Shown here: in pieces, positions 30,980 through 56,069 of the stretch
Position numbering within the stretch: the stretch's first letter is position 1
Layout: each line of letters opens with the position of its first letter
DNA from: Patescibacteria group bacterium
GTDB lineage: Bacteria; Patescibacteriota; Saccharimonadia; Saccharimonadales; Saccharimonadaceae
Direction: 5' to 3'
DNA length: 64,000 nt
NCBI GenBank assembly: GCA_004322265.1
Contig: SCSZ01000012.1
Location: 1 to 64,000, forward strand
The notes under the pieces: generated by a model
Told to the model about the DNA's origin: nothing
The model's input: only the letters and a program-made list of their open reading frames with translations
Databases searched by the model: none
Program-made: the position numbers and the translations under genes

Positions 30980-32003
30980 ACTTCACAATCGTCATTTGAT
31001 AGAAAATATAGCCAAACACAATAGTGCCGAGCAGCAGACAAACTCTCGCGAGAAGTGTCCCTGCGATTGCCTCTGCTGGATGTACGCCAGCTGACGCCAA
31101 AAATGCAATCATAATAGCTTCATATAACCCTGCTCCGCCTGGTGTAACCGAGAAAATACTGGCGGCACCGGATACGCCAAACGCAACAAATAATGTCGCA
31201 GGGTTTACCCAGAAGCCCAGCGACATAAAGGCTACAGAAAGCAGCGCAACGTCGCATATATTCATAACGAGGCCCCATATAAATGGCTTAATGAGAATAC
31301 GCTTGTCAGCACGAATCTGATTAAAGTCGTCATGTAGTTGAACAAAGAATGGTTCAATTGTTGCTTTCTTAAGGGTATCTTTTTTGCGTCCGCGAGTAAA
31401 AAATGATATGACCTTATTCACGCTGCGCGTTAGCCAAGTCGAAAACTTATCGAGACGTCTATGATTACCTATAATATAAATACTAAGAGCAAATAACAGC
31501 AGTGCTGCAGCCGTCAGTGAACTTGTAATAATTATCACCGCACGACTGACATGATGATCATATGCGAGCGAGGCGACAGCCACCAGTAACAAGACAATAA
31601 AACTACCAAACCCAATCGTAAAGCGCACGATTTGTGCCATCGTCGCTCTACCAGCGCTCACACCAAAACGGCTGAGCACCCATCCTAGATACGAAAAGCC
31701 AGCTGCCCCACCGCTCGGAATAATGTGGTTAACAAAATTAAGCTCCAACGCCATACGCGTAATAGCCCAGTGTGATGTCCCCTTCAAGTTCCCCTTGGAT
31801 CGAAGATAAGAAAAGATCATCCCTCCGGTTGCATAGTAGCTTAGTAGCTGAACAGGGATAATCAAAGCCAAAATCCACGGATTAACATGGCCCAGTAGGT
31901 GAAACGCACGTACGATCTCGTGGCGACCAAAGTACACGACAAGCGCCAGCAAGATTAGTGTGATGATGGTAACCCATGAACGAAATGACATACTATTTGT
32001 CAT
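30954..32003 (-). CDS. LPG synthase TM-like (UPF0104) membrane protein; start trimmed from ORF-track 32066
   Basis: Multi-TM; HIIPSGGAAGFSYLG, SVTPGGAGLYEA; upstream codons overlap structured RNA A so start set to MTNSMSF. Confidence 0.75.
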   Translation of the reverse strand: MTNSMSFRSWVTIITLILLALVVYFGRHEIVRAFHLLGHVNPWILALIIPVQLLSYYATGGMIFSYLRSKGNLKGTSHWAITRMALELNFVNHIIPSGGAAGFSYLGWVLSRFGVSAGRATMAQIVRFTIGFGSFIVLLLVAVASLAYDHHVSRAVIIITSSLTAAALLLFALSIYIIGNHRRLDKFSTWLTRSVNKVISFFTRGRKKDTLKKATIEPFFVQLHDDFNQIRADKRILIKPFIWGLVMNICDVALLSVAFMSLGFWVNPATLFVAFGVSGAASIFSVTPGGAGLYEAIMIAFLASAGVHPAEAIAGTLLARVCLLLGTIVFGYIFYQMTIVKYGKRPTNS

Positions 32004-32013
32004 TATAACACCT

Positions 32014-32106
32014 GCGGGTGGCGTTCGGTGGGGCAGCACCCAGATTTGTTTTATGATTGTAATCAACCAGAAAAAAATCTAGGGGCAAACCGGACGACAG
32101 GACCCG
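32014..32106 (+). ncRNA. Candidate structured RNA, copy A
   Basis: GCGGGTGGC-GTTCGGT-GGGGCAGCACCC-[hairpin]-AGGGGCAA-ACCGGAC-GACAGGACCCG, homologous and covarying with copy B. Confidence 0.65.
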
Positions 32107-32136
32107 TTTCATCTAGAAGTCAGGTATAATACACTT

Positions 32137-33300
32137 ATGTACGTCTCTATTCTTGGCCGTCAACCTGCTCTCGGTATTGCCGAGCTTGAAAGAGTGTTTG
32201 GCGGTGGTAATGTTACTCCCCTATCTTCTCTCGCGGCCACGATTGACACTCCCCTGCTTGATATCCGAAACCTTGGCGGGACACTCAAGGCAGGCAAAGT
32301 AGTCATTGACCTCCCTTCAGGAGATTGGTCTAAGGTGAATCAAAAAGTTATTCAATACTACGCAGATCAATGGGCCTCATATGAAGGCAAAATTACCCTT
32401 GGCGTGAGTAGCTATGGTTTTGATGTTAGCTCACGCGAGGTTCAAAAGATTGGCATTACCCTTAAGCAGAAGTTAAAGAAAACAGGCGTCAGCCTACGCG
32501 TCGTTCCGAACAGCGAACCTGCTCTATCAACTGCTACCAGTCATCACAACAAGCTTGGACTATCCGCTAACAAGGTTGAACTACTAATCATACTTGCAAG
32601 AAACGGCCGAATTGTGGTCGCAGAGAGTACCGGCGGCCAAAATATCAGCGCCTACGCCAAGCGCGACCAAGAACGTCCGAAACGTGATGCCTTTGTCGGT
32701 ATGTTGCCACCTAAACTCGCCCAGATTATGATCAATCTGGCTCACCCGGATGCTGGTGCGCGAATCTTAGACCCTTTTTGTGGTACTGGCGTCATTTTGC
32801 AGGAAGCATCACTAATGGGATACCGCGTTTATGGCACTGACCTTGTTGATAAAATGATCAGTTTTAGTCGTGATAACCTTGAGTGGTTATCTCGAACACA
32901 CCGCGTCGACGTCCGTAGCGATCTTCACAGCGGCGACGCCATGACAACAAAATGGCAATCCCCAATCGATGCGGTTGTTGCCGAGACATATCTGGGTCAG
33001 CCCTTCAGTGCTCCACCCTCAATGCCAAAACTTGAGGAAGTACGCAAGAATTGTAACCACATTATTACAGAATTTTTGAAAAATCTTAGCTCGCAAATCA
33101 CTTCTGGCACCCCTGTTTGTATTGCTGTTCCAGCCTGGCGATCAGTTGATGGATCATTCACTCACCTGCCATTTATCACCACTATTACTCAGCTTGGTTA
33201 TAAGCCTCACGAGTTCCACAATGTATCCCAAAATGACCTTCTATACTACCGTGAAGACCAAATTGTCGCCCGTGAGCTTCTTGTCCTCGTAAGACAATAA
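32137..33300 (+). CDS. TRM11/UPF0020-like RNA methyltransferase
   Basis: N-term THUMP-like region; RILDPFCGTGVILQEASLMGYRVYGTDL. Confidence 0.75.
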   Translation: MYVSILGRQPALGIAELERVFGGGNVTPLSSLAATIDTPLLDIRNLGGTLKAGKVVIDLPSGDWSKVNQKVIQYYADQWASYEGKITLGVSSYGFDVSSREVQKIGITLKQKLKKTGVSLRVVPNSEPALSTATSHHNKLGLSANKVELLIILARNGRIVVAESTGGQNISAYAKRDQERPKRDAFVGMLPPKLAQIMINLAHPDAGARILDPFCGTGVILQEASLMGYRVYGTDLVDKMISFSRDNLEWLSRTHRVDVRSDLHSGDAMTTKWQSPIDAVVAETYLGQPFSAPPSMPKLEEVRKNCNHIITEFLKNLSSQITSGTPVCIAVPAWRSVDGSFTHLPFITTITQLGYKPHEFHNVSQNDLLYYREDQIVARELLVLVRQ

Positions 33301-55978: not shown

Positions 55979-56069
55979 CGGGTCCTGTCATCCGATTTAC
56001 CCCTTCTTTTGATTTTTCTTATTAAAGAAAACATCAAAAGCGGGTGTTGCCCCATCGGATGCCACCCGT
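55979..56069 (-). ncRNA. Candidate structured RNA, copy B
   Basis: ACGGGTGGC-ATCCGAT-GGGGCAACACCC-[hairpin]-AGGGGTAA-ATCGGAT-GACAGGACCCG; covaries with copy A. Confidence 0.65.

Follow-up and report, generated by a model that had tools for sequence, protein, structure and literature searches.

A previously uncatalogued family of ~90-base hairpin elements, very probably mobile, in Saccharibacteria genomes

The palindromic elements of Rickettsia and Wolbachia (RPE and WPE) are short palindromic repeats that lie in preexisting genes with the reading frame kept (PMC3767692; PMC10969869). Differing elements can occur at one protein site, their translated parts are solvent-exposed, and the genomes that carry them are reduced and host-dependent (PMC3767692; PMC10969869). 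MITEs such as ERIC, Correia/NEMIS, BOX and RUP are small, non-coding and multicopy, and at times lie in frame in genes (PMC10969869). Here, we analyzed a stretch of 64,000 nt (the window) from a member of the Saccharimonadaceae, and found that two structured sequences in it, copies A and B, belong to a previously uncatalogued family of ~90-base selfish hairpins present in many Saccharibacteria genomes. No description of such elements in Saccharibacteria was found in the open-licence literature.

We liken the element to RPE by behavior and not by sequence homology, and we do not file it as an RPE because its host clade differs. Its core mostly measures 66-124 nt, or ~130-170 nt with flanking arms or a second hairpin (D2), in keeping with the ~100-150 bp of RPE palindromic repeats. 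As in RPE, the frame is kept (43 of 46 gene-internal copies) along with the identity of the genes, different inserts are found at the same place in gltX, and the hosts are reduced and host-dependent. Unlike RPE, the element resides in another phylum, with exact-pattern matches that are essentially from Saccharibacteria only and not from Rickettsiales, and it shows a strongly conserved plus-strand fold, non-Watson-Crick covariation and many intergenic copies. With REP sequences and REPINs it shares dispersed folded hairpins that have no gene of their own, and RAYT-like genes occur in part of genus g1; in contrast to them, its nested fold is much longer, it has in-frame intragenic copies, and several high-copy genomes are without Y1. 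Small, non-coding, multicopy and in frame in genes, the element also resembles MITEs, but no direct target duplication was detected and no parent transposon was found, and inverted arms are seen instead. Integron attC sites function as folded single strands of DNA, forming imperfect hairpins in which extrahelical bases are conserved. The likeness to attC is a functional analogy only. The element's consensus has no visible GTTRRRY core site, and its copies are isolated rather than placed at cassette ends.

The features of the two copies and of the neighborhood of copy A are as follows.

32002-32007, minus strand: TATAAT box of the opposed membrane-protein gene (ATG at 31991), adjoining copy A on the outside; presumed function
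32015-32106, plus strand: copy A, core (D1) of the putative mobile hairpin element, 92 nt, subfamily I
32015-32019, plus strand: 5' strand of helix P1, CGGGT, partner 32102-32106; 97.6% of cells paired in 99 copies
32020-32022, plus strand: G6, purine 7 and C8, with partners 32098, 32097 (G.A or A.G) and 32096
32022-32029, plus strand: 5' strand of helix P2, partners 32088 and 32090-32096, with the A at 32089 bulged
32030-32034, plus strand: invariant unpaired GGGGC, conservation 88-99% in 99 copies
32036-32047, plus strand: 5' strand of P3/P4, partners 32075-32080 and 32082-32086
32048-32074, plus strand: variable apical arm, wholly different between subfamilies
32099-32101, plus strand: conserved AGG bulge, in 97-99 of 99 copies
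32125-32130, plus strand: TATAAT box of a THUMP/methyltransferase-like gene (ATG at 32137), adjoining copy A on the outside; presumed function
55979-56068, minus strand: copy B of the element, 90 nt, subfamily II, in the greA/lysS spacer

The preliminary description had proposed two copies of a structured RNA here, and both copies are real: within the 64 kb, the 5' and 3' half-motifs match at copies A and B only (0.00 and 0.06 matches expected from shuffles), and both fold better than shuffled sequences (z of -2.9 and -5.3). The 7-bp helix that was said to change on both sides between the copies does so. In a MAFFT alignment of the 10 distinct copies of this genome, 11 of 24 pairs changed on both sides, and the covariation score was 0.307 as compared to 0.138 in shuffles and at most 0.119 with the pairing slid. 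With 99 distinct copies from 37 genomes, 443 double-change cells were counted vs. 137 in shuffles, the score was 0.465 vs. 0.162 (at most 0.124 with partners slid), and 93.8% of cells were paired in the corrected structure; double changes were seen in 8 of 8 pairs of P2 and 9 of 11 pairs of P3/P4. Alignment A3, unlike alignment A2, was fitted to the covariance model, which did not include the 7/83 pair. The conserved structure and its covariation are real. The nested hairpin stands, whereas the open outer loop (GGC/GACAGG) does not, as it is made up of the AGG bulge, a G-C pair and a purine-purine pair that covaries; in addition, the partner of position 15 is 74, and A75 is bulged out. Read inwards, P1 (CGGGU/ACCCG, commonly lengthened by 1-3 pairs into the flanks) is followed by the 3-nt bulge, G6-C84, the purine pair 7/83 and P2, and then by the unpaired GGGGC, R22-Y72, C23-G71, mostly one bulged nucleotide, CCC/GGG and an arm that varies freely. 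At 7/83, 63 copies have G.A, 28 have A.G, six have A.A and two have G.G; with a single vote given to each genome and type, the swap is significant (Fisher p ~3e-7), and both states occur in nine genomes. Tandem GA/GA at 11-12/78-79 was found in 21 copies. Since G.U-type pairs outnumber C.A-type pairs by 72:23, the plus strand as given is the folding strand, and this excess fits RNA and single-stranded DNA alike because G.T is milder than C.A in DNA also.

No Rfam family matched in the window at gathering scores, and permissive thresholds gave chance-level matches only. A kink-turn for the outer loop was ruled out, as the order of the bulge and the G.A pairs misfits. Copy B lies upstream of lysS and contains GGGTGGC, but a T-box-like element was rejected given that Rfam gave no match and other copies are untied to aminoacyl-tRNA synthetase leaders. 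To our knowledge, the fold has no likeness to the small ribozymes twister, pistol, hatchet, hammerhead and HDV.

The element is dispersed. By pattern search, the 886-kb host genome (G000) has 14 copies, comprising 12 true copies, one that is divergent and inverted and one that is internally deleted. The copies fall into three subfamilies, distinguished by helix P2 and the entire apical arm, and three pairs of copies are identical letter for letter with unrelated flanks, with the twins of copies A and B on contigs C18 and C7, respectively. A covariance-model search of Saccharibacteria, which the preliminary description had suggested, found further covarying copies in many genomes. The element was found in at least 39 of 151 genomes of the family (model R1) and matches in at least 58 of 348 genomes of the order Saccharimonadales, other families included (model R2), with weak R2 matches in at least four genomes outside the order in the same phylum; the counts of these large scans are lower bounds, model E-values are rough, and most genomes are metagenome assemblies. 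The family is clade-restricted. An exact composite pattern searched in 85,488 species yielded 59 stretches, practically all from Saccharibacteria assemblies or untitled bins. The exact pattern had no match in viral contigs (IMG/VR), no similar DNA was found in phages or plasmids, and no ORF-bearing version of the element was seen; a viral or plasmid source for the element was rejected for want of any match. Copy numbers reach 25 in G279, 24 in G360, 20 in G218 and 17 in G405, where most copies are near-identical.

Presence of the element varies between relatives. The greA-lysS spacer holds the full copy B in the host genome, an internally deleted remnant in G036 and a decayed inverted remnant in G101, and it is short and element-free in many other genus members. 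By this sequence comparison, copy B is an insertion between greA and lysS. Flank comparison also identified orthologous sites where the element points the same way (L001/L071 and L004/L075) and others with an inverted or other-subfamily element (copy A vs. L073 of G036, L011/L074, and the dus gene, L119/L141). No near-identical strain with an exact empty site was found, and for a G218 arm the empty-site search yielded no relative close enough. The dus insert (~260 nt) is inverted between G122 and G017, with flanks ~93% identical and the frame open both ways; a palindromic module, GAATTTTCCAAAACGGCTTC...TTGGAAAATTC, accompanies the element there (L119:2881-3150 and L141). Internally deleted remnants are present at L032:1488-1525, L084:3001-3040 and the greA-lysS spacer of L347, and their junctions at short repeats (GGGGCA) are consistent with slippage across the hairpin.

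Insertions are found in spacers and also in frame within essential genes. When the open frame was picked separately for each side, 46 of 155 copies were gene-internal (31 sense, 15 antisense), and 43 of these were in frame and stop-free. The three exceptions are two overlapping-ORF artefacts (L118 and L127) and a C-terminal case (L144). Interrupted genes include gltX, cysS, valS, leuS, topA, tsaD, mnmA, uvrB, rsmA, dnaX and sucCD, among others, and most score above NCBIfam equivalog cut-offs, the element dividing the profile match in two. The gltX region measures 72 nt uninterrupted vs. 204 and 243 nt with the element. This gltX loop is a hot spot for in-frame insertions; two other genomes (L172 and L173) carry unrelated inserts there, one of them palindrome-like. 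The cysS insert sits in a loop whose length depends on the relative. In an AlphaFold model of CysRS built with 16 homologues, the fold was intact (pTM 0.85), and residues 218-245, which make up the insert, had pLDDT below 50 and no secondary structure; the insert is modeled as a loop without order in a protein that otherwise folds. Downstream of many intragenic copies lies the second conserved hairpin, D2 (GCGACCUACGU-stem-ACGACGGGAGC), which had no match in Rfam. At L118:8986-12009 (minus strand), a leucyl-tRNA synthetase contains a seemingly Nudix-like stretch, GGIEDGETPEEAARREITEETG, in addition to the hairpin element.

The flanks bear on how the element is joined to its target. Direct repeats at the element's ends were at most marginally above control, and inverted words of at least 8 were found at 9.7% of copies vs. 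0.6% of mis-paired controls. In G218, eight of eight testable copies have unique inverted arms of ~22-41 bp, perfect or nearly so, which begin ~9-13 nt outside the core. The last codons of a gene lie in the left arm at L334 and L335 and in the right arm at L260; thus, the native side varies and the opposite arm looks like an inverted copy. These arms suggest, at the level of sequence, insertion with inverted duplication of target DNA. The young G405 copies are without long arms, so inverted arms are not universal. Other palindromes neighbor the element: a further repeated palindrome, CCACGGTGAGCGCGCCAGAATCTYGAGA..., probably a separate family, adjoins it at L088 and L108 (G018), and other hairpins are nested in its 3' arm at L123:3001-3120 and L129:3001-3124, so that more than one family of mobile palindromes, indeed several, appears to be at work in these genomes. 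Head-to-head pairs of the element, with 5' ends facing each other across a gap of ~20 nt, occur at L002:812-893 (minus)/913-1002 (plus) and L102:3001-3084 (minus)/3107-3191 (plus), and in G405 a second partial 3' end, AAAACCTCGACAGGACCCG, comes after the element at L294, L295 and L302.

Interpretation as a structured RNA, whether stand-alone or cis-acting, is only partly supported. Strong one-strand covariation with conserved bulges, in something that is not any known Rfam family, is what a novel riboswitch, ribozyme or small RNA would show. However, a site-specific RNA gene or regulator, as first described, does not agree with 14 dispersed copies with unrelated flanks, a copy B site that is empty in many genus members, or copies elsewhere in frame in unrelated genes in both orientations. 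Copy A itself has a promoter-like box on either side, the two being divergent, and is part of neither predicted leaderless transcript, and the reported ORF overlap with it holds only for an alternative TTG start, the ATG at 31991 being outside the element. No support for ligand binding or cleavage was found, copies A and B probably have no adopted function, and a non-coding or cis-regulatory RNA is very improbable as the explanation of the family. Least probable of all, and scarcely to be expected, is a self-splicing or bypassed RNA insert, either a small intron of a new kind or a translational bypass element; it would suit a structured RNA within essential genes with D2 on many intragenic copies, but splicing or bypass would need neither the frame-keeping nor the freedom from stops seen in nearly all intragenic copies, and about one-third run antisense to the gene, which puts the fold on the wrong strand.

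We consider it highly probable that copies A and B are instead a small, non-autonomous mobile hairpin, or palindromic element, with 14 copies in this genome and multiplied in Saccharibacteria. Movement of a REP/RAYT type, by a Y1 (HUH) transposase that acts on the hairpin in single-stranded form, would agree with the folded single strand, the lack of direct duplication and the RAYT-like Y1 genes found in five of seven genus-g1 genomes tested (as well as in G729) and missing from the copy-free G080. On the other hand, G101 and the high-copy genomes G218, G279, G405 and G360 (17-25 copies each) had no Y1 match, and the fetched flanks of Y1 genes contained no element, making this route unlikely. 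Reverse transcriptase was missing from G218 and G279, so that neither Y1 nor RVT_1, the two Pfam families searched, tracks the element across genomes, and no parent transposon sharing its ends was found with them. Replication template switching can yield hairpins as well as compensatory changes, and it can invert loops (PMC8604942; PMC8794818). Palindromes made and kept in this way, with covariation as a mutational by-product of an unselected fold, would fit the inverted arms and the inverted orthologous copies. Yet template switching would turn mismatches into Watson-Crick pairs, while AGG, A75, GGGGC and the purine-purine pairs persist; it cannot account for G.A to A.G swaps and, alone, leaves identical copies at unrelated places unexplained. 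As a full explanation it is thus quite improbable, although it probably contributes to the inverted copies.

If the mobile hairpin is the correct reading, the element, having no gene of its own, would be recognized in trans by way of its folded plus strand, most likely while this is exposed as single-stranded DNA in replication. Disruptive insertions would be removed by selection and harmless copies would persist, in spacers and in protein loops where the element would be translated as a disordered peptide. The fold would be retained because the next move needs a folded copy for recognition. In one lineage, the joining step may have left an inverted copy of adjacent target DNA through polymerase template switching at insertion. 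It is conceivable, though rather doubtful, that this constitutes a new class of mobile element, i.e., a transposase-less folded single strand of ~90 nt, order-wide, that can leave an inverted instead of a direct target duplication of 20-40 bp and lies in frame in essential genes in either orientation.

For the annotation of these genomes, our findings advise caution, as novel structured-RNA calls in Saccharibacteria can be mobile DNA. Both the enzyme that recognizes the fold and the origin of the inverted target copies can now be tested. The insertions also amount to dozens of natural experiments, each forcing a peptide of ~25-60 residues on an essential enzyme. Selfish palindromes lying in frame had been described before from Rickettsia and Wolbachia, and an order-wide family in the ultra-small Saccharibacteria, of an unrelated phylum, suggests that such elements have spread convergently where genomes are reduced and host-dependent.
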